From: Aliarcobacter cryaerophilus
GTDB lineage: Bacteria; Campylobacterota; Campylobacteria; Campylobacterales; Arcobacteraceae
DNA: 64,000 bases
Assembly: GCF_014352935.1 (NCBI RefSeq)
Contig: NZ_CP060694.1
Span: forward strand, 1,488,001-1,552,000
Direction of reading: 5' to 3'
A program made the position numbers and the translations under genes. Below the pieces are notes generated by a model. That model had not been told where the DNA came from, made no database searches, and saw only the letters and a program-made list of their open reading frames with translations. Positions within the stretch are counted from its first letter, which is position 1. Every line of letters begins with the position of its first letter. This document shows positions 27,776 to 38,146 of this stretch, piece after piece.

Positions 27776-28684
27776 TCATTTATAACTTTTTGCAATCTCG
27801 TTTGCTACAAAAAGCATATTATTGTACCAATCATCACTTAATGGATTTATAGATACTACATTTGCACCAACATTTTGTGAAATTGTTTTTGCACTTTTTT
27901 GTGAAAATTGAGGTGCTACAAATACTATTTTTATATTATGTTTTTTTGCTTCTTCTACTAACTGAAGTAACTCATTTGGTTTTGGCTCTTTCCCTTCAGT
28001 CTCAATAGATATTTGCTCAATATCATATCTTTTTGCAAAATATCCCCAAGACGGATGAAATACCATAAAAGCAGAGTCTTTATAAGGTTTTAATATATTT
28101 TTTATCTCATTATCCAAATTATCTAGCTCTTTTACAAACTCTTCATAATTAGCTTTATAAAAATGACTATTTTCTTCATCTATTTTAACCATTGCTTCAT
28201 AAATATTTTTTGCTTGAATTTTTACACTTATTGGGTCTAACCAAATATGTGGATCAAGTCCATCATCTTCATGAGAGTGTCCATTTTTATCTTCATGTTT
28301 ATGATTAGAATGATTATGTTTTTTGTGCTCATCTTCTTCATCATGATGAGTGTGTTCAACCATAGCAATTTTTTCTACTCCAATAGTTGTATCAACAAAA
28401 ATTGTACTTTTTGCATTTTGTTTAAATCTCGTAATCCAAGCTTTTTCACTAGGTTCTCCTATCATAAAATATGCTTTTGAATTACCTAAAGATTTCATTT
28501 GAGATGCTTTTGGCTCAAAATTGTGAGGAGAACTACCTGGTTTTACCATAACATTAATATCAAACTTATCTTTTACTATTTTTTCTACAAAATATTTTTG
28601 TGGTAAAATTGTAACTGTTAACTCCTGCTTTGAAGCAAATAAAATTGTTGTAAACAACATAAAAATTAGTAAATAATTTCTCAT
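27776..28684 (-). CDS. znuA: Zinc ABC transporter substrate-binding protein
   Basis: A 302-residue periplasmic metal-binding lipoprotein-like or secreted SBP of cluster A-I. It has a signal peptide (YLLIFMLFTTILFASKQ). Metal ligands are SPHNFEPKAS (first His), DPHIWLDPI (second), FMVFHPSWGYFA (third) and NPLSDDW. The loop before the second ligand is extremely His/Asp/Glu-rich (HTHHDEEDEHKKHNHSNH and on), the hallmark of zinc rather than manganese SBPs. The permease and ATPase genes are not in this window. Divergent from a Fur-family regulator across two palindromes. Confidence 0.94.
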   Translation of the reverse strand: MRNYLLIFMLFTTILFASKQELTVTILPQKYFVEKIVKDKFDINVMVKPGSSPHNFEPKASQMKSLGNSKAYFMIGEPSEKAWITRFKQNAKSTIFVDTTIGVEKIAMVEHTHHDEEDEHKKHNHSNHKHEDKNGHSHEDDGLDPHIWLDPISVKIQAKNIYEAMVKIDEENSHFYKANYEEFVKELDNLDNEIKNILKPYKDSAFMVFHPSWGYFAKRYDIEQISIETEGKEPKPNELLQLVEEAKKHNIKIVFVAPQFSQKSAKTISQNVGANVVSINPLSDDWYNNMLFVANEIAKSYK

Positions 28685-28711
28685 ATTTATCCTTTGTATT
28701 TAAATATATTA

Positions 28712-28726
28712 TGCAACTAGGTTGCA
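28712..28726. promoter_or_regulatory. Palindromic operator 1 (znuA side)
   Basis: TGCAAC-TAG-GTTGCA, a perfect 6-bp dyad with a 3-nt centre, 28 bp upstream of the znuA start. Similar to the element 50 bp away. A likely Zur/Fur-type operator by position; binding is inference. Confidence 0.65.
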
Positions 28727-28761
28727 AATTTTTTTGACATTCTAAACTTTTTATTCTTTAA

Positions 28762-28776
28762 TGCAACTTAGTAGCA
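28762..28776. promoter_or_regulatory. Palindromic operator 2 (Fur-family gene side)
   Basis: TGCAACTTAGTAGCA, an imperfect version of the same dyad, 30 bp before the Fur-family start and just upstream of a TAGAAT -10-like sequence. The first eight bases (TGCAACT) match operator 1 in the same orientation. Confidence 0.6.
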
Positions 28777-28805
28777 CTTAATTAAATTTTAGTTAGAATA
28801 AATTT

Positions 28806-29168
28806 ATGATAAAAGAAAATTTTTCAAATATAAAACTTACAAGTGCCAGAAAATCTATCTTGGATATACTTATAAACTCAAGTAAACCATTAAGTTATGA
28901 AGATATAAAAGATAAAATATCTATGGATAAAGCAACTTTTTACAGAAATATCACGATTTTTGAAGAAGAAAATCTTATAAACTCTTTTGAGTCAAATGAT
29001 AAAAAAAGATATTTTGAAATAAAAGATATTGAGCATTCACACTTTATTTGTAACAACTGTTCAAATATTGAGTGTATTTTTGAAAAACCAAACTTTCTTT
29101 TACAAGATTATAAAATTGAAAATATTATCCTAAAAGGAAAATGTAAGGAGTGCAATAAAAATGGCTAA
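28806..29168 (+). CDS. Fur-family metal-responsive regulator (Zur-like)
   Basis: 120 residues, slightly short. The winged helix has LTSARKSILDILINSSKPLS and recognition helix MDKATFYRNITIFEEENLI. The dimerisation domain has FEIKDIEHSHFICNNCSNIE and a final GKCKECNKNG, giving two CxxC pairs for structural zinc. Because it diverges from znuA across two matching palindromes, a zinc-sensing (Zur) role is the simplest reading, but a Fur or PerR role cannot be excluded. The stop overlaps the nhaA start by eight bases, placing the regulator at the head of the nhaA-P1B ATPase operon. Confidence 0.88.
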   Translation: MIKENFSNIKLTSARKSILDILINSSKPLSYEDIKDKISMDKATFYRNITIFEEENLINSFESNDKKRYFEIKDIEHSHFICNNCSNIECIFEKPNFLLQDYKIENIILKGKCKECNKNG

Positions 29169-30426
29169 AATACTTTCCGCTAGCTACTTAAGAAAAATTG
29201 TAAATATAAAGAATCAATACAAATTTATAAGAAGCTTTATATCAACTGCAACTTTAAGTGGAATTCAGCTCTTTTTGGTGACAGTTTTGGCTGTTTATAT
29301 AGCAAACTCTATGTTTGCTCCACAATATTTTGAACTTTTAAAAACACATTTTAGCTTCTCTTTTGGAACACACACTTTTTCTATGAGCCTTCAGCACTGG
29401 ATAAATGATGTTTTAATGGCACTATTTTTCTTAGTTGTTGGTCTTGAAATAAAAAGAGATATGCTAGTAGGTGAGCTTTCAAGTCCAAAAAAAGCATCAT
29501 TTCCTATAATTGCAGCACTTGGAGGGATGATTATTCCAGCAATATTGTATCTAAGTGTAAATCAATCTCATCCAACAGGATTTGGAATTCCTATGGCTAC
29601 AGATATTGCTTTTGCCTTAGGAATTTTAATGCTTTTAGGAAAAAGAGTTAGTCTATCTTTAAAAGTATTTTTAGTAACTTTAGCTGTTGTAGATGATTTA
29701 GGAGCAATAGTTGTAGTTGCAATATTTTATACAAGTGAACTTCATTATGACTTTTTACTTTATTCAGTTTTAACATATTTTATTCTTATGATTTTTAACT
29801 ATTTTAATCTAGTACGTGTTATGCCTTACCTATTTATTGGTATTTTTCTATGGATTTTTATACATAGTTCTGGTATTCACTCTACAATAGCTGGAATTCT
29901 TCTAGCTTTTGTAATTCCTTTAAAAGCAAAAAATACAACAGTTGAAGAGATTGAAGAGCATAACTCAAAAAGTCCACTTTTGAGAGTTGAACATGCACTT
30001 CATAACTTTAGTGCATTTATTATAATGCCTGTTTTTGCATTTGCAAATGCAGGTGTTGAACTAGATTTTGCAAGTGTTATAGAGAATAAAACAATTGTTC
30101 TTGGAGTATTTTTAGGTTTACTTATTGGTAAGCCTATTGGAATTTTAGCTTCAACTTATCTTGCAACAAAATTTAAAATTAGTGAAAAACCAGCAAATGT
30201 AACTTGGAGTGAAATTTTAGCAGTTGGATTCTTAGCAGGAATTGGATTTACTATGTCAATTTTTATCTCTGTTTTAGCTTTTGATGATCCACATATTGTA
30301 AGTGCGGTAAAAATTGGTATTTTTGCTAGTTCAATTAGTGCTGCAGTTATTGGAGTTATTTTTCTTCTAATTGTGGGGAAAAAAGAGACACAAAAAGAGT
30401 TTCTAGAAGGTCTAAATGATAAATAG
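29161..30426 (+). CDS. nhaA: Na+/H+ antiporter NhaA
   Basis: A 421-residue inner-membrane antiporter. The signature motifs are PMATDIAFALGILMLLGKR (discontinuous helix) and LAVVDDLGAIVVVAIFY, which carries the two adjacent ion-binding aspartates; FGLEIKRDMLVGEL-type loop and FAGIGFTMSIFIS near the C-terminus also match. It exports sodium and regulates pH. The gene overlaps both neighbours: the Fur-family regulator by 8 bp and the HMA2-like gene by 11 bp. Such coupling to metal genes is unusual. Confidence 0.95.
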   Translation: MAKILSASYLRKIVNIKNQYKFIRSFISTATLSGIQLFLVTVLAVYIANSMFAPQYFELLKTHFSFSFGTHTFSMSLQHWINDVLMALFFLVVGLEIKRDMLVGELSSPKKASFPIIAALGGMIIPAILYLSVNQSHPTGFGIPMATDIAFALGILMLLGKRVSLSLKVFLVTLAVVDDLGAIVVVAIFYTSELHYDFLLYSVLTYFILMIFNYFNLVRVMPYLFIGIFLWIFIHSSGIHSTIAGILLAFVIPLKAKNTTVEEIEEHNSKSPLLRVEHALHNFSAFIIMPVFAFANAGVELDFASVIENKTIVLGVFLGLLIGKPIGILASTYLATKFKISEKPANVTWSEILAVGFLAGIGFTMSIFISVLAFDDPHIVSAVKIGIFASSISAAVIGVIFLLIVGKKETQKEFLEGLNDK

Positions 30427-30730
30427 TGAAACTATCATAAGAATTTCTAGTTATTTCACAATTATTGCACATACTCCTGGAAGATTAAGAGTTAGAGTAA
30501 ATCCAAAAATAGTCAATGAAGCAGAGAATATATCTTTAGATGATATTACAAATCTTCCAAAAAAAATATCTGGTATTGAAGATATTAAAATAAATAAAAT
30601 TATAGCTTCTGTTACAATTATATATAATCCTACTATTTTTAAGCCAAAACTATGGGAAGATTTGATAAAAAATGAAAATATAGATGAAATAACACAAATT
30701 ATAAATAATCTATCAAAGGAGGCTATATAA
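30416..30730 (+). CDS. HMA2-like domain protein
   Basis: 104 residues with a single ferredoxin-like heavy-metal-associated-type (HMA2) fold. IIAHTPGRLRVRVNPKI contains the H-x-PGR-x-R-x-R motif seen in these proteins, followed by ISGIEDIKINKIIASVTIIY. It lacks the CxxC of classical HMA domains and has no cysteine at all, so it is not a copper/zinc chaperone of the usual kind. The ATG lies inside the nhaA end with AAGG upstream. It overlaps the ferritin-like gene by one base. The HMA2/P1B-6 association is known from ferrosome-type clusters; its role here is inference. Confidence 0.75.
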   Translation: MINSETIIRISSYFTIIAHTPGRLRVRVNPKIVNEAENISLDDITNLPKKISGIEDIKINKIIASVTIIYNPTIFKPKLWEDLIKNENIDEITQIINNLSKEAI

Positions 30731-31416
30731 TGCCCATAGATTACAATATTTTAATTAAAAAAAGAGTTGATTTAAATTCAAATATAAATATTGATGAGCA
30801 GATTTTACAAATCGCTATTTATGATGAGTTTAAAGCTTACGAAACTTATAGCAAAATAATTGAAACTTTTGGAAATATAGATCCATTTATCAATATTAAA
30901 GAGTCTGAAGCAGTACACTATAGTATGCTTATAAAATTAGCAGAAAAATATAGTGTAGAAGTTCCAATAAATGACTGGAAAGATAAAATAGAAATCCCAA
31001 ACAACTTAATAGAGTGTTATGAATTGGGAGTTGCAGCAGAGATTGAAAATATTGCTATGTACAATAATCTTTTAATAAATTCAACAAAAAGTGATATTAC
31101 AGATGCACTTTTTAGACTTCAAGCTGCCTCTTTTAACAATCATTTACCAGCTTTTAGATCTTGTGTAATAAATTACTACAATAGCTTTCACTCTTCTTCA
31201 AATAGTAGCGAAGATATTATGCAAAAAATGCAAGAGTACCAAGAGATTGTAAATAATCTTATGAATGGAAATATAGATGAAAATACAATTTCAAATCTTA
31301 GTTCAAAACTATTTTCAAATATAAGTTTTCAATTTTTAGGTGGCGCTGTTAGTGGAGCTGCAATTGTAGCACTTTTAAATCAATTTTTAGAAAATCAAAA
31401 TTCAAACAAGGAGTAA
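30730..31416 (+). CDS. Ferritin-like protein with C-terminal membrane/Gly-zipper segment
   Basis: 228 residues. The first ~150 form a four-helix ferritin-like/rubrerythrin-type domain (DUF2202-like). Candidate di-iron ligands are in YDEFKAYETY (E33, E38), KESEAVHYSMLIKLAE (E60, H63) and ELGVAAEIENIAMY (E98, E104, E106). After a Ser/Asn-rich linker, the C-terminus is a hydrophobic glycine-rich helix, FQFLGGAVSGAAIVALL, followed by a short polar tail, which should anchor the protein to a membrane. That tail is unusual for this family. It has a perfect AAAGGAGG ribosome site. A role as ferroxidase or iron sensor on the membrane of an iron organelle is inferred from context. Confidence 0.72.
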   Translation: MPIDYNILIKKRVDLNSNINIDEQILQIAIYDEFKAYETYSKIIETFGNIDPFINIKESEAVHYSMLIKLAEKYSVEVPINDWKDKIEIPNNLIECYELGVAAEIENIAMYNNLLINSTKSDITDALFRLQAASFNNHLPAFRSCVINYYNSFHSSSNSSEDIMQKMQEYQEIVNNLMNGNIDENTISNLSSKLFSNISFQFLGGAVSGAAIVALLNQFLENQNSNKE

Positions 31417-31419
31417 AAA

Positions 31420-31695
31420 ATGGCATTACCATTTATAGCTGGTTTAGCTCTTGGAGCTTTAGGAGTTGTTGCTTATAAAAATAGAGATATCATTAAAAAA
31501 AAGGGTGAAAATATTTTTAAAGATGCAAAAGAAAAAGGTGAAATTTTAAAAAAAGATATTGAAACAAAAATTTCACAAACAAAAAAGAAGTTTGAAAAAG
31601 AAGATACAAAAAAAATAGTTGAAAAACCAAAAGCTACAAAAAAAACATATTCAAGAAAGCCAAAAACTACTGAAAATAAAGAGGCAAATTTATGA
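31420..31695 (+). CDS. Small membrane protein with basic coiled tail
   Basis: 91 residues: one short N-terminal glycine-rich helix (ALPFIAGLALGALGVVAYKN), then a Lys/Glu-rich helical tail (KKKGENIFKDAKEKGEILKK and on) ending in a Lys/Thr-rich disordered end. The layout resembles YtxH-type small proteins. I do not recognise a specific family. It lies three bases after the ferritin-like gene and overlaps the next by four. Possibly a membrane-bending or anchoring component; no function is shown. Confidence 0.7.
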   Translation: MALPFIAGLALGALGVVAYKNRDIIKKKGENIFKDAKEKGEILKKDIETKISQTKKKFEKEDTKKIVEKPKATKKTYSRKPKTTENKEANL

Positions 31696-32036
31696 AAAAT
31701 ATAAATACAGGAACACCTAGAAATGTTTTAGGTCATGTAATAAGTGGTGCAATAGCAAGTGCTGTTATTAGTGGTGCAATAAATTACAAGAAATATCAAA
31801 ACGGTCAAATAAAAAAGTGTGAAGCAATAAAAGATACTACAAAAAAAGCAACTCAAGGTGCTATTGTTACAGGAAGTGCTATTGCTACAACGAACTATAT
31901 TGGTGAAGGAAACTATCTTAGAGCTTTAACATCAGCTTCTATTGGAATGGCTGGAATTTATGCATTAGAAATAATTGAAGAAAAACTAGAGCAAAAATAC
32001 TTAATAAACCAAAATCTAGAATTAGAGGAAAACTAA
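31692..32036 (+). CDS. Small Gly-zipper membrane protein
   Basis: 114 residues with two or three glycine/alanine-zipper helices: VLGHVISGAIASAVISGAI, QGAIVTGSAIATTNYIG and LTSASIGMAGIYALEIIEE, then an acidic C-terminus. Glycine-zipper helices pack closely in membranes and recur in magnetosome- and ferrosome-associated proteins (general knowledge). No catalytic motif. The ATG overlaps the preceding stop, and the next gene follows directly. Confidence 0.7.
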   Translation: MKNINTGTPRNVLGHVISGAIASAVISGAINYKKYQNGQIKKCEAIKDTTKKATQGAIVTGSAIATTNYIGEGNYLRALTSASIGMAGIYALEIIEEKLEQKYLINQNLELEEN

Positions 32037-32037
32037 A

Positions 32038-32406
32038 ATGGCTAATAACAATCAAAATTTTAATCAATATAACACAGATATAAATAGTACAAGAAATAGC
32101 AATCAAAATGGGCTAAATATAAACCAAAATCCATACATCAATAGTGGTGTAAATCAAAATTTTATAGGACAAAATCCGAATAATCAAATACAAAACCAAT
32201 CAAGCTCTTTTTTAAATGGGGATTTTATAAAAGGTGCATTAATTGGAGCAGTAGCAACTTATATTTTAACAAATAAAAATGCTCAAGAGAGTATTTTTGA
32301 AACAATAAACAAAGTAAAAAATCTTGCAACTGCTGGCTTTGAAGAGCTAAAAGAGAGAATTGAAGATGCAAAAGCAGCTTCAAAAGTAAATGAACAAGAG
32401 TTTTAA
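32038..32406 (+). CDS. Asn/Gln-rich YtxH-like membrane protein
   Basis: 122 residues. The first 60 are a low-complexity Asn/Gln/Ser-rich segment, then one glycine-zipper helix (FIKGALIGAVATYILTNKNA) and an amphipathic helical tail (VKNLATAGFEELKERIEDAK). The helix-plus-charged-tail half is YtxH-like. The Asn-rich N-terminus is likely cytoplasmic and disordered. One base separates it from the previous stop, and it is five bases before the P1B ATPase gene. Confidence 0.7.
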   Translation: MANNNQNFNQYNTDINSTRNSNQNGLNINQNPYINSGVNQNFIGQNPNNQIQNQSSSFLNGDFIKGALIGAVATYILTNKNAQESIFETINKVKNLATAGFEELKERIEDAKAASKVNEQEF

Positions 32407-32411
32407 AAATA

Positions 32412-34529
32412 ATGAATAAAAAATTTATAAAAGTTCATCAAATAGGACTTAGAGCTAGATATAAGCTTGAAATACTAAAAGATAATTTTATAGATGAAGA
32501 TATTTTAAAAGGTTATTTTAATAATTTTAGTGAAATACAAAGTATAAGAGTAAATAAAAAAGCATATTCAATAATATTTGAACTCAAAAAAGATATCTTT
32601 CAAGATATAGAAAAGAGATTAAAAACCATTACTTTAGAAAATCTCTTAAAATCTGCATCAAAAAGTGAAGCTAGTGTTTGTGTATCTTGTACATCAAACA
32701 AAGAGCCATCTATAAAAGGAACTCTACTTGCAACTACTGCTTTGGTTGCCGAAAGATTGGTTACAAATAATAGTTTAAAAGCTGCTATTACAAGCGTTGC
32801 TTCAGTTCCTCTTCTAATTGATGGTACAAAAGAGCTTTTTAATGATGGTTTAACTTCTCATGTACTTGAAGCAGCAGCTGTAGCTATTTCTATTTATAGA
32901 AAAGATTATCTTGCAGCAAACTCAACAAATGCTATGTTAGAGCTTGGTGAATATATAGAAGAAACTACTGTTCATAAAAGTGATGATTTACTAAAAGAGC
33001 TAGCTCGCCCAAATATTGAAGAAGCTTGGGTTGAAAGAAAAGTAGATGGAAAAGTAGTAGAAGTTTTAGTAAAAACAGCTGAACTAAAAGTAGGTGATAT
33101 TGTAGTAGTTGGAGCAGGAAGTACTATTGCAATAGATGGTCATATAATAGATGGAGCAGGTACAATTAACCAAGTATCAATGACTGGAGAGGCAGAACCA
33201 ATAGCAAAATATAGAGGAGATAGAGTAATATCTGGAACTATTGTCGAAGAAGGAAGATTTAGAATTTGGGCTGAGCAAGTTGGTGCAAATACGGCAACTC
33301 AAAGAATAAAACATTACATAGAAAACTCTTTAAATGAAAAGTCATCTGCTCAGCTAAAAGCAAATCGACTTGCAGACAAGCTAGTTCCTGTTACTTTAGG
33401 ATTAGCAACCGCTGCTTATATTTTTACAAAAGATTTTCAAAGAGTTGCATCTGTACTTCAAGCTGATTACTCTTGTGCTTTAAAACTTGCAACTCCTGTT
33501 GCTTTTAAATCTACAATTTCAAAAGCTGGTCATAGTGGAATTATGATAAAAGGTGCAAAATCTATTGAAGCACTAAGTAGTGCTGATACCTTTGTTTTTG
33601 ATAAGACAGGAACTCTTACAAGTGGTGAATTAGAAGTTATAAGTGTTGATTCCTATGATAAAAATTGGAGTGAAGAGAAGCTTTTAAATCTTACAGCTTC
33701 AACAGAAGAGCACTATTTTCATCCTGTAGCTGAAGCTGTTGTAAAGGCAGCAAAAGAGAGAGGTTTTGTACATATGCATCACGAAGAGGTTCAATTTATA
33801 GTAGCCCATGGTGTAAAAACAGAAATAAAAGGTAAAAATGTAGTAATAGGAAGCAGACATTTTTTAGAAGATGATGAAAAAATAGATTTTTCTTCATACA
33901 AAAAAGATATTGAAAACTCTTTAAAAAAGAGTGATACTTTACTATATGTTGGATATGATGGTAAACTTTTAGGAACTATTGGACTTAGTGATGAGTTACG
34001 AGAAAATACAAAAGAGAGTATAAAAAGATTAAAATCTCTTGGTGTAAAAAATATTGTAATGCTAACAGGAGATACAAAAACAAAAGCTTTAAAAATTGCT
34101 GATGAGTTAGGTATTAATGAGGTAAAAGCCGAACTTTTACCTCAAGATAAAGCAAATATTGTAAAAGAGTTGATGCAAGAGGGTAAAAAAGTTGCTTTCA
34201 TTGGAGATGGTATAAATGATGCTCCTGCTCTTATATCTTCTCATGTTGGAATTTCAATGAGTCGTGGAGCTGATATAGCAAAAGCAACTGCTGATATTAG
34301 TCTATTAAAAGATGATATCGCTGCTGTTGTTGAAGCAAAAGAGTTTGCAAATAAAACCATGAATTTGATAAATACTAACTTCAATGCAACTGTTGGAATA
34401 AATAGTGCAATTCTTTTAGGTGCAACTTTTGGTCTATTCTCTCCTATTGTAACAGCTGTATTACACAATGGAACAACAATAGGATTACTATTAAATTCGA
34501 TAAAAGGGGTAAAATTAGCTAAAAAATAG
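32412..34529 (+). CDS. P1B-type (P1B-6-like) metal-transporting ATPase
   Basis: 705 residues. The N-terminus is a degenerate HMA2-like domain (VHQIGLRARYKLEI) with a CVSC pair at C90/C93 before the membrane part. The actuator is MTGEAEPIAKYRGD; the phosphorylation site is FDKTGTLTSG (D397); the N-domain has EEHYFHPVAEAV; the hinge is MLTGDTKTKA and FIGDGINDAPAL. The membrane metal site reads DYSCALKLATPVAF (S354, C355), so the usual CPC is replaced by YSC/SCA. That matches the P1B-6 subgroup, which includes FezB of ferrosomes and has been linked to iron. The metal and direction are inferred, not shown. It follows the small membrane genes by five bases and lacks a strong ribosome site. Confidence 0.9.
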   Translation: MNKKFIKVHQIGLRARYKLEILKDNFIDEDILKGYFNNFSEIQSIRVNKKAYSIIFELKKDIFQDIEKRLKTITLENLLKSASKSEASVCVSCTSNKEPSIKGTLLATTALVAERLVTNNSLKAAITSVASVPLLIDGTKELFNDGLTSHVLEAAAVAISIYRKDYLAANSTNAMLELGEYIEETTVHKSDDLLKELARPNIEEAWVERKVDGKVVEVLVKTAELKVGDIVVVGAGSTIAIDGHIIDGAGTINQVSMTGEAEPIAKYRGDRVISGTIVEEGRFRIWAEQVGANTATQRIKHYIENSLNEKSSAQLKANRLADKLVPVTLGLATAAYIFTKDFQRVASVLQADYSCALKLATPVAFKSTISKAGHSGIMIKGAKSIEALSSADTFVFDKTGTLTSGELEVISVDSYDKNWSEEKLLNLTASTEEHYFHPVAEAVVKAAKERGFVHMHHEEVQFIVAHGVKTEIKGKNVVIGSRHFLEDDEKIDFSSYKKDIENSLKKSDTLLYVGYDGKLLGTIGLSDELRENTKESIKRLKSLGVKNIVMLTGDTKTKALKIADELGINEVKAELLPQDKANIVKELMQEGKKVAFIGDGINDAPALISSHVGISMSRGADIAKATADISLLKDDIAAVVEAKEFANKTMNLINTNFNATVGINSAILLGATFGLFSPIVTAVLHNGTTIGLLLNSIKGVKLAKK

Positions 34530-34605
34530 ATTTTAATAATAGTTATCAGTTTTGTTTAAGAAATTAAATAATACAATTCTTTTAATTTATTAAAGGATAT
34601 ATTTT

Positions 34606-34725
34606 ATGCCATTTTTATTACCATTAGCGACTTTAATCACAGGTGTTTTGACAGTTAAAACTGTAAATAAAACTATAAAAACTTATGAAAGAAGAAAAAA
34701 AAGAGATGAAAGAGCTAAAATTTGA
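34606..34725 (+). CDS. Micro-protein with one membrane helix (39 aa)
   Basis: A 39-codon gene with AAAGGATA eight bases before ATG. It encodes PFLLPLATLITGVLTVKTV, then a strongly basic tail (TYERRKKRDERAKI). Its N-terminus resembles that of the 91-residue protein in the same cluster (short hydrophobic glycine helix, then basic tail). The last ~40 nt overlap the next gene in another frame. A TACAAT box at 34572-34577 may serve as a separate promoter. Confidence 0.6.
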   Translation: MPFLLPLATLITGVLTVKTVNKTIKTYERRKKRDERAKI

Positions 34726-34954
34726 TTTAGAACTTCAAAAAGAAGTTGCAAAAATTGGAATGAGTGCAACTTTAGGTGCAACTGTTGTAACTTCAATGTT
34801 TATGAAAAATAAAATTGCCAAAAATACTCATATTATTGCAGGTGTTGCATTTTGCGGTTTTGCACTATGGCATCACATGCTTTACCAACCAAAAAAATCA
34901 AAAAAAGAGAATGAAAAAAATATTATAAATCCAACAAAATCTTCAATAAAATAA
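34685..34954 (+). CDS. Small two-helix membrane protein
   Basis: 89 residues from the first ATG. The alternative ATG six codons later (MKELKF) is equally possible, since both lie inside the overlapping 39-codon gene. Two hydrophobic helices, about residues 24-40 (IGMSATLGATVVTSMFM) and 48-67 (HIIAGVAFCGFALWHHML), are followed by a Lys-rich tail. Possibly translated by coupling with the nested upstream gene. No family is recognised. It is the last gene before pyrH and probably belongs to the P1B ATPase cluster. Confidence 0.62.
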   Translation: MKEEKKEMKELKFDLELQKEVAKIGMSATLGATVVTSMFMKNKIAKNTHIIAGVAFCGFALWHHMLYQPKKSKKENEKNIINPTKSSIK

Positions 34955-35014
34955 ACTAAGTTTTTGTTAATCATATTTTAGATAGAATGCAAAAATTATT
35001 GAAGGATAAAATAG

Positions 35015-35722
<708 letters not shown>

Positions 35723-35753
35723 TTCAAAATAGATTTTAAAAAGGATATTAAAA

Positions 35754-35972
35754 ATGGAAAGATTAGAAGAGAGAATTTCAAGAGCTTTAAAACAAGTTGA
35801 TAATGATAGATATGTTTTAGCAATTGCAGTTGGACAAAGAGCAGATGAATTAAGCAAAGGTGCAAAACCACTTTTAAGCCAAAATACTCAAAAAATGAAA
35901 TATACAGATATTGCAATTGATGAAATAGCAAGTGGATTGCTAAAAATCAACGGTTTTACTGATAAAAAATAG
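35754..35972 (+). CDS. rpoZ: RNA polymerase omega subunit
   Basis: 72 residues: MERLEERISRALKQVDNDRY followed by VLAIAVGQRADELSKGAKPL, typical of omega proteins of Campylobacterota, with the conserved RA-x-E-L-type segment (QRADEL). It is upstream of spoT, an order shared with many proteobacteria, and has an AAAAGGATATTA ribosome site. Confidence 0.93.
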   Translation: MERLEERISRALKQVDNDRYVLAIAVGQRADELSKGAKPLLSQNTQKMKYTDIAIDEIASGLLKINGFTDKK

Positions 35973-35992
35973 ATCTCTACTTAGTAGATTTT

Positions 35993-38146
35993 ATGAATTT
36001 ATTCTTCAAAGAGCTACAACTAGTAAATACAATTGAAGGGGCAATAAAAGAGCTTGAAAAGCAAATTGATATTAGCCCTAAACTAAATGGGATTATTGAT
36101 TTTATTATCGAAGCTCATGAGGGTCAATTTAGAAAAAGTGGTGAACCCTATTCGGTTCATCCAATTCTTGTAGCAACAATAACTAGTACTTTTTCAAAAG
36201 ATGAAGATGTTATTGCAACTGCACTTCTTCATGATGTTGTAGAAGATACACCCTTTACATTAGAATTTGTTGAAGAAAAATGGGGTAAAAATGTCTCTAA
36301 TATGGTTAAAGGTCTTACAAAAGTAGCAGATATTAGAGAAGAAAATTTTATTACTTCAAAAGATTCAAGCGATACAAAAATAGTTCAAGCAGCACTTACA
36401 TTTAGAAAAATGCTAATAGCATCAATAGATGATCCACGAGTTTTAATAGTAAAACTATGTGATAGACTTCATAATATGCTTACTCTTGCTGTTTTACCAC
36501 AACATAAACAAAGAAGAATAGCTGAAGAGACTCTGGTTGTTTATGTTCCAATTGCCAATAGACTTGGTATTTCAACACTTAAAAATGAGTTAGAAGATTT
36601 AGCATTTTTCTATATTTATCCAGATGAGTACAAAAAAATTGATGATTTTTTAAAAGAGAATGAACAAGCTATGCAGCTTAGTTTCAATACTTTTATTGCT
36701 ATTACAAAAAATTTATTAGAAAAAAATGGTTTTGAAGAGAATGAGATAAAAATATACTCAAGAATTAAACATCACTATTCAATATATTTAAAAATGCAAA
36801 GAAAAGGTATTACTATAGAAGAGGTACTTGATCTTTTTGCAATTAGAATCTTAGTTCCAAGCGATATAGATTGCTATAAGGCATTAGGACATATTCATTT
36901 AGAATTTAAACCTTTAGTTTCAAGATTTAAAGATTATATAGCAACACCTAAAGAAAATGGTTACAAAACTATTCATACAACAGTTTTTTATAATTCAAAA
37001 ATATATGAGATTCAGATTCGTTCATTTGATATGAATAGTGTTGCAGAGTATGGAATAGCAGCTCACTGGGCATATAAAAATGGAGAAAAAAATAGCTCTT
37101 CAAGTTCAAATCTTAATTGGTTAAAATCTTTGGAGTTCTCTAATGACAACATAGAAGAGTTCTATAATGAAACAAAAGAAAATTTGTTTAACGATGAAAT
37201 TATAGTTTATTCACCAAAAGGTGAAGTTTTTATCCTGCCTATTGGTTCAACTGCTTATGATTATGCTTTTGCGGTTCATACAAATGTTGGAAAAAAAGCA
37301 ATTTCTTGTTATATAAATAAAATTAAAAAACCTCTTTTAACAGTTTTAAAAAGTACAGATATTATACAAATTGAGCTAGGAAATGAACCAATCATAAGAT
37401 GTTCTTGGATAGATATGGTAAAAACTTCAAGAGCAAAAAAACAATTAAAATTTTTATGTATGCAAAGACAAAGAGAGATAGATGAACTTGCTGGAAAAAA
37501 TATTATAAATACTATATTTTCTAGATATTATAATGATATTTTAGAACATTATCCAGTAAAAGGTCTATATAAGGTACCAACAAATTTACCTTTTTTAAAA
37601 AATGCAAAACAAATTGTAGAGAAAAAAGTATTAAAAGAGAAAGGAATTATGGGAAGATTTAAAATCTTCACAAGCAAGATAAAAGAGTTTAAATTTGACA
37701 ATATGCTTATTTATTCTAACTTTAATATAAATTCTGTATCATTTGACCACTGTTGTCATCCAAAATTTGGAGATGATATTATTGCATTTAGAAACTCTCA
37801 CAATGCAATAATTCACCATAAAATGTGTGATAAAGCTTATTCTAAAATAAAAGAAAATGAACAAATGTTGTATTGTGAATGGGCAAAAAACTCTGTTTTT
37901 CAATACAAAATGCTAATAAGTATTCCAAATACAAAAGGTGAATTAGCAAAAGTTTTAGCATATCTTTCTAAAAGCGATTTTTATATCTTAGCTTGTAATT
38001 TTGGGCGACAAAAACACTCATATATTCAATATTGTGATATAGAGTTTGAGATAAATAATTCAAATGTAGATGAAGTTAGACAAATTGTTGAGAAAAATAT
38101 AAAAGTTATAGATTTTATGTCAAAAAAAGACGCATATAATAAATAA
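35993..38146 (+). CDS. spoT: Bifunctional (p)ppGpp synthetase/hydrolase
   Basis: A Rel/Spo homologue of 717 residues controlling the stringent response. The HD hydrolase domain (VHPILVA, LLHDVVEDTPF, KLCDRLHNML) is intact, so hydrolase activity is expected. The synthetase domain shows YSRIKHHYSIYLKMQRKG, DLFAIRILV and KENGYKTIHTTVF. A TGS domain follows (VYSPKGEVFILPIGSTAYDY), then a zinc-finger/helical part (DHCCHPKFGDDI) and a C-terminal ACT domain (LISIPNTKGELAKVLAYLS). The single long RSH is normal for this class. The ATG overlaps nothing and lies 20 bp after rpoZ. Confidence 0.96.
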   Translation: MNLFFKELQLVNTIEGAIKELEKQIDISPKLNGIIDFIIEAHEGQFRKSGEPYSVHPILVATITSTFSKDEDVIATALLHDVVEDTPFTLEFVEEKWGKNVSNMVKGLTKVADIREENFITSKDSSDTKIVQAALTFRKMLIASIDDPRVLIVKLCDRLHNMLTLAVLPQHKQRRIAEETLVVYVPIANRLGISTLKNELEDLAFFYIYPDEYKKIDDFLKENEQAMQLSFNTFIAITKNLLEKNGFEENEIKIYSRIKHHYSIYLKMQRKGITIEEVLDLFAIRILVPSDIDCYKALGHIHLEFKPLVSRFKDYIATPKENGYKTIHTTVFYNSKIYEIQIRSFDMNSVAEYGIAAHWAYKNGEKNSSSSSNLNWLKSLEFSNDNIEEFYNETKENLFNDEIIVYSPKGEVFILPIGSTAYDYAFAVHTNVGKKAISCYINKIKKPLLTVLKSTDIIQIELGNEPIIRCSWIDMVKTSRAKKQLKFLCMQRQREIDELAGKNIINTIFSRYYNDILEHYPVKGLYKVPTNLPFLKNAKQIVEKKVLKEKGIMGRFKIFTSKIKEFKFDNMLIYSNFNINSVSFDHCCHPKFGDDIIAFRNSHNAIIHHKMCDKAYSKIKENEQMLYCEWAKNSVFQYKMLISIPNTKGELAKVLAYLSKSDFYILACNFGRQKHSYIQYCDIEFEINNSNVDEVRQIVEKNIKVIDFMSKKDAYNK

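Follow-up and report, generated by a model that had tools for sequence, protein, structure and literature searches.

The window, by which we mean the whole 64,000-nucleotide stretch of Aliarcobacter cryaerophilus DNA that was analyzed, contains a co-directional block of seven genes that looks like a ferrosome (fez) operon, ferrosomes being organelles that store iron. The second gene of this block encodes a ferritin-like protein of 228 residues. The features of the protein and its neighbors are as follows.

30416–30730, + strand: first gene of the fez-like block, an HMA_2-like small protein of 104 residues (Pfam HMA_2, 29.9 bits, cut-off 30)
30730–31416, + strand: ferritin-like protein gene, 228 residues, ATG start (Pfam DUF2202, model and fold matches)
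30778–31197, + strand: ferritin-like four-helix domain, residues 17–156 (model, fold alignments, ligand conservation)
30826–30828, 30907–30909, 30916–30918, 31039–31041 and 31141–31143, + strand: codons of the ligands E33, E60, H63, E104 and H138, in that order
31321–31380, + strand: C-terminal Gly-zipper segment, residues 198–217, with G205 and G209 (motif, profile, conservation)
31420–31695, + strand: g91, a small protein bearing a Gly-zipper segment of this type at its N-terminus (motif FIAGLALGA)
31692–32036, + strand: g114, a small membrane-type protein with weak MamC similarity (NF038051, E 2.5e-5, 24.5 bits, cut-off 100)
32038–32406, + strand: g122, a small protein that also bears a Gly-zipper segment of this type (motif FIKGALIGA)
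32412–34529, + strand: FezB-like P1B-type ATPase, 705 residues (TIGR01525, 488 bits, cut-off 346)
34685–34954, + strand: after a gap, an 89-residue DUF4405-like membrane protein, possibly a FezC-like heme-binding segment (DUF4405 E 0.0054, 17.7 bits, below the cut-off of 26.7)

The metal ATPase that a preliminary description of this DNA had placed beside the ferritin-like gene is thus present, as the P1B-type enzyme listed above. It carries a TM4-type motif, DYSCALKL, with no CPC, and its DNA signature lies at 33465–33487. The protein also passes the threshold of the cadmium-family model TIGR01512, and it was included in a phylogenetic tree together with FezB candidates, recognized by sequence, of Desulfovibrio and alphaproteobacterial type. 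The HMA_2-like gene occupies the same place in all Arcobacteraceae and other Campylobacterota loci compared, and the DUF4405-like gene does so in many relatives. A second P-type metal ATPase, only distantly related to FezB, immediately precedes the HMA_2 gene in many relatives (loci L032–L035, L037, L040, L043, L087–L090, L097, L106, L108, L109, L111 and L173). Separately, the similarity of g114 to magnetosome MamC, well under the model’s cut-off, hints that ferrosome and magnetosome proteins may be connected.

Upstream, a short Fur-family gene and NhaA (28806–30426) overlap each other as well as the first fez-like gene, and all of them may therefore lie on one transcript in this strain; NhaA is also found upstream of the block in L003–L005, L016 and L023. 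The gap between a ZnuA-like gene on the − strand and the Fur-family gene on the + strand (28685–28805) holds a palindrome, TGCAACTAGGTTGCA, at 28712–28726, with a similar second copy near 28761, which is probably the operator of the Fur-family regulator. A search of the 64-kb window for the classical Fur box, using the E. coli consensus and allowing up to three mismatches, gave no matches, and Rfam returned nothing at gathering thresholds over 28000–36000. A scan for promoter-like sequences found 28, below the mean of 36.4 in shuffled sequence.

The 228-residue protein had been described beforehand as a di-iron-type four-helix ferritin-like domain, and this assignment holds. Pfam DUF2202 (PF09968) matches it at 24.0 bits, exceeding the gathering cut-off of 22, and at 22.3 bits (cut-off 22) in the search of the genome. 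The AlphaFold2 model, computed from 28 family members, consists of four long helices (residues 21–47, 53–73, 93–117 and 121–157) that form a bundle with block pLDDT mostly 93–98 up to residue 150, and of a helix at 206–226 that lies outside the bundle, with pLDDT about 40–53. A model of the Thauera homologue, from 6 sequences and with a mean pLDDT of 73.8, likewise has a bundle and a separate, uncertain tail. The best Foldseek match of the A. cryaerophilus model is MJ0754 (3q4n, E 3.3e-5), and VIA-align superposes the model on bacterioferritin (9h1u_J) with Z 17.1 and rmsd 2.1 over 136 residues, and on MJ0754 (3q4n_A) with Z 16.2 and rmsd 2.6 over 133 residues; families missing from the fold-match list were not counted as evidence. 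In a sequence search of the PDB, MJ0754 was the sole credible relative, and a match to the ribonucleotide reductase 9d3x (E 0.0072) was dismissed as a chance hit. By fold alignment, and by the ligand columns held in common with five DUF2202 cousins, the four-helix fold and metal-site residues of MJ0754 are present in the 228-residue protein. More broadly, DUF2202 proteins such as MJ0754 (3q4n/3q4r) and plasmid homologues encoded beside feoB or peroxiredoxin genes have the same fold and the ligands E33, E60, H63, E104, N107 and H138. The likeness to ferritin and bacterioferritin lies in the four-helix fold, at Z about 16–17. Unlike them, the 228-residue protein has no listed match to Pfam Ferritin (PF00210) at E up to 1, carries F or Y where helix D would have the ExxH glutamate, and bears a tail. 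The one gene matched by PF00210 in the same genome is another one, a separate true ferritin.

In alignment A1, which comprises 28 of the available family sequences, E33, E60, H63, E104 and H138 are invariant, as they are in the five soluble, plasmid-borne DUF2202 cousins. The ligand list proposed earlier therefore stands for E33, E60, H63 and E104, had missed H138, and is probably wrong for E98. This last position was rejected as a ligand: members with every other ligand intact have A, Q, L or T in its column, and it is not conserved in the soluble cousins. For this reason, E104 is the likelier ligand, and H138 is to be added. Helix D lacks the ExxH glutamate in the site-keeping members shown, which have F or Y at position 135.

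The metal site is far from universal in the wider family. Of 67 aligned members, 35 have the full set of five ligands, 11 have three or four and 21 have fewer than three, so that the set is incomplete in 32; individually, E60 is retained in 38, H63 in 40, H138 in 45 and E104 in all 67. Tailless copies of 146 residues and the gene of L200, cut by the end of its stretch, were excluded from these 67. Mapped onto a FezB tree of 117 proteins, which was obtained by a quick search and has several long branches, the ligand state changes at least 8 times and the presence of the gene at least 4 times. Proteins shorter than 600 residues were excluded from this tree (118 rows in the first round, 117 in the final one), as was L200; L206–L245 were scanned for the gene and left out of both the tree and the ligand counts. 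The largest ligand-lost group (f3, 18 rows) has R, K or Q at position 60, G, A or F at 63, and Y or N at 138; it may belong to Campylobacteraceae, although a plasmid search for this group gave only Arcobacter, Azospirillum and Vibrio. Another group on the tree, f2, probably corresponds to Helicobacteraceae, because Helicobacter sp. MIT 00-7814 (L133) falls beside L104. When 16 ligand-lost members were combined in a profile, it continued to match both the domain (96%) and the tail (98%). Loss of the metal site seems to have happened several times, usually with the protein retained; judged from these alignments, the site is dispensable and the tail mostly is not. The ferroxidase-like chemistry suggested in the preliminary description is weakened accordingly, since many orthologues in the same operon slot have lost ligands, and the repeated loss of the site suggests that the tail-borne subunit has a structural job as well.

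The C-terminal Gly-zipper segment was expected to stand apart from the domain, and the placement of helix 206–226 outside the modeled bundle agrees with this. Its hydrophobicity is moderate: the KD-19 maximum of the protein is 1.86, at residues 198–216, ranking 14th among 64 ORFs of the window. Over 52 family sequences, the mean KD-19 is 1.65 for the tail versus 0.85 for the domain. The strict motif F..G[AL]..GA occurs in 3 of the 64 window ORFs, the 228-residue protein, g91 and g122, all of one operon, and on this ground the tail is probably a shared ferrosome module. Across 60 loci, the motif is present in 39 of 57 g122 proteins, 10 of 54 g91 proteins and 1 of 660 other ORFs. A search for the tail in homologues beside the ATPase, which had been proposed with the original observation, found more than chance would give: the motif is present in 18 of 59 orthologues, and G205 and G209 are kept in 67 of 67 aligned members, a count that favors tail-bearing copies, as these members were picked with profiles including the tail. 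When the tail profile was compared with the single sequences of g91 and g122, probabilities of 71 and 72% were obtained, versus at most 7.5% for 150 unrelated hydrophobic control segments. Kinship with g114 was unsupported (2.9% and 9.7% in two profile comparisons), and a shared tail is for that reason claimed only for the 228-residue protein, g91 and g122. The tail appears related more weakly to Pro-rich proteins of the Ferrimonas/Vibrio/Cereibacter type (44.5%) and to betaproteobacterial tails (64%). Unlike the 228-residue protein, the five soluble DUF2202 cousins have no Gly-zipper tail and stop 12–48 residues past H138, without the motif. The simplest reading of these sequences is a DUF2202 domain fused to a fez tail. 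Four degenerate copies are without the motif, which speaks against a strict need for the tail.

The first six genes are found in the same order in 50 of 50 Arcobacteraceae loci, the A. cryaerophilus one included (the contig of L047 ends before the ATPase), and in 40 of 40 loci from other Campylobacterota. L001 was dropped from the former set as a duplicate of L002, and the proteins of L042, L030 and L047 were shortened by the start-codon rule used. Among 397 Campylobacterota genomes, the FezB DNA signature is present in 131 (a reversed-pattern control gave 0 among the matches listed) and the family of the 228-residue protein, at E ≤ 1e-10, in 122. In all 122 protein-bearing genomes, the signature lies on the same contig and strand, 1796–3024 bp downstream; none of the 397 has the protein without the signature. 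Nine further genomes bear the signature: five have a more degenerate copy in the slot (L254–L258), and L252, L253, L259 and L260 have fez operons with no copy of the gene detected in the slot. L256, L257 and L258, which are related genomes, have a degenerate slot copy of 146 residues without ligands or tail.

Beyond this phylum, a FezB-motif scan of named genomes yielded at least 120 stretches, biased to GC-rich species and many of them not covering the slot. The gene is clearly in the same fez slot in 21 of the 120 stretches listed; a further copy is broken (L194), and another is truncated where its stretch ends (L200). Among the matches listed, it is seen in Thauera, Pseudothauera, Aromatoleum, Rhodocyclus, other Rhodocyclaceae and Dechloromonas, and also in Azotobacter beijerinckii, Azomonas, Helicobacter, Hydrogenimonas and others. 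The protein is thus found in fez operons of beta- and gammaproteobacteria, namely Zoogloeaceae/Rhodocyclaceae and Azotobacter/Azomonas. The broken copy, in Candidatus Dactylopiibacterium carminicum (L194, 2349–3050), seems to be split into two overlapping frames, and FezB is open there. Operons of Azospirillum, Magnetospirillum, Aeromonas and Rhodoblastus that cover the slot contain no ferritin-like gene, and in Ferrimonas and Vibrio the slot holds a Pro-rich protein with a related tail. Two Arcobacter plasmids carry the block, with a ferritin-like protein 75% identical, the gene order having been read on one of them; the whole block can therefore move between strains. These plasmids are L055 (CP129951) and CP134847, 133-kb, from Arcobacter of chicken meat.

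Fez operons were reportedly described by Grant in 2022 and Pi in 2023, in Rhodopseudomonas palustris, Shewanella putrefaciens, Desulfovibrio magneticus and Clostridioides difficile. Such operons are marked by HMA_2 and small Gly-rich membrane-type proteins, and a six-gene order with these proteins is present in all loci compared. By homology, the block appears to resemble fez operons in its FezB-like P1B ATPase, its HMA_2 protein, its small Gly-rich membrane-type proteins and possibly its DUF4405-like protein (DUF4405 below cut-off). Ferrosomes and fez genes are already known (PMC12016538, PMC10979944, PMC12574912 and PMC12748827): ferrosomal FezB is called a putative transporter of ferrous iron, and FezC is DUF4405-like (PMC10979944). 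Six fez genes are reported for R. palustris (PMC12016538), the same number as in a six-gene block of Rhodoblastus acidophilus that has no ferritin-like gene. Unlike the fez operons reported for the species above, the A. cryaerophilus block has an extra DUF2202 ferritin-like gene in second position, which was probably added to a six-gene fez operon of the Rhodoblastus kind. Unlike magnetosome clusters, it has no other magnetosome gene noted beside the MamC-like g114. Among the papers covered by our literature search, none joins ferrosomes with Arcobacter, or DUF2202 with the term ‘ferritin-like’, and two (PMC12574912 and PMC10669011) contain both ‘ferrosome’ and ‘ferritin-like’; the founding ferrosome papers may already mention the gene.

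Three other explanations bear on how the protein is understood. It could be mainly a structural or assembly factor of the ferrosome, with the ferritin fold as a scaffold and the metal site incidental or vestigial. This would account for the many orthologues that keep slot and tail after losing E60, H63 or H138, for the third or so of aligned members (21 of 67) with fewer than three ligands, and for the repeated changes of ligand state on the FezB tree. It fits poorly with E104, which no aligned member has lost, and with the full five-ligand set seen in all aligned Arcobacteraceae members and across Campylobacterota, Zoogloeaceae and Rhodocyclaceae, a persistence that indicates lasting selection on the site in the lineages keeping it. 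On balance, we regard a mainly structural role as rather unlikely.

A different view would make the block an ordinary heavy-metal efflux operon, for Zn, Cd, Co or Fe, whose ferritin-like protein protects an exporter in the plasma membrane. NCBIfam does place the ATPase in the general heavy-metal P-type subfamily TIGR01525 and above the cut-off of TIGR01512, and the upstream genes include one for a ZnuA-like protein and one for a Fur-family regulator. We nevertheless hold efflux to be improbable: TM4 reads SCALK in place of CPC, the ATPase is accompanied by four or five conserved small Gly-rich membrane-type proteins, a DUF4405-like gene (below cut-off) follows it, and the layout matches the Rhodoblastus six-gene block, whose gene count is like that reported for R. 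palustris fez (PMC12016538). As to the C-terminal helix, the moderate KD-19 value and the uncertainty of the model at the tail would also suit an oligomerization helix of a soluble ferritin-like assembly in place of a membrane element. Ferritins have a short fifth helix that could serve as a precedent. Such a helix is very improbable here, given that g91 and g122, proteins without a ferritin domain, contain segments homologous to the tail, that soluble DUF2202 cousins do without it, and that about 40 residues separate the bundle from the zipper.

We thus consider it fairly likely that the gene encodes a ferritin-like subunit of a fez operon, held at the membrane near FezB, handling Fe(II) and oxidants and serving as a scaffold where the ligands are gone. 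This reading draws on the seven-gene block, the almost invariable pairing with a FezB-type ATPase, the DUF2202 domain with intact ligands and the tail homologous to g91 and g122. No N-terminal export signal is visible in the 228-residue sequence, and the domain would therefore be expected in the cytosol and not in the organelle lumen. The C-terminal tail would insert into the ferrosome membrane, or pack on it, with the other Gly-zipper proteins, and would hold the ferritin-like domain on the cytosolic side, with FezB and the HMA_2 protein as neighbors. In that position, the domain may bind Fe(II) and buffer it or hand it to the FezB pump; it may also, or instead, consume O2 or H2O2 near the Fe(II)-rich organelle in a rubrerythrin-like manner. 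The likely role is thus that of a cytosolic-face ferrosome subunit that handles Fe(II) and oxidants and is partly structural; in lineages that lost the ligands, the protein would persist mainly as a tail-borne assembly or scaffold subunit. A more general scenario, which we offer tentatively and at slightly less than even odds, is that ferrosomes use the shared Gly-zipper tail for targeting or packing, that some lineages fused a ferritin-like domain to it to form a hybrid store at the cytosolic surface, and that several of these later reduced the domain to a metal-free pseudo-ferritin.

Ferritins and ferrosomes are usually treated as alternative ways of storing iron. In this family, a membrane-bound iron store seems to have taken up the ferritin fold, and, if this is true, a ferritin fold encoded in a ferrosome operon on a common tail would join the two. 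The tail itself would then be a concrete candidate for a ferrosome-targeting signal, and the lineages that kept the ligands, lost them or have no gene would offer a natural experiment on the role of the metal site. Ferrosomes are also predicted in many Campylobacterota, a third of the genomes sampled, which fits the question of a 2025 review whether other bacteria have ferrosomes (PMC12574912).
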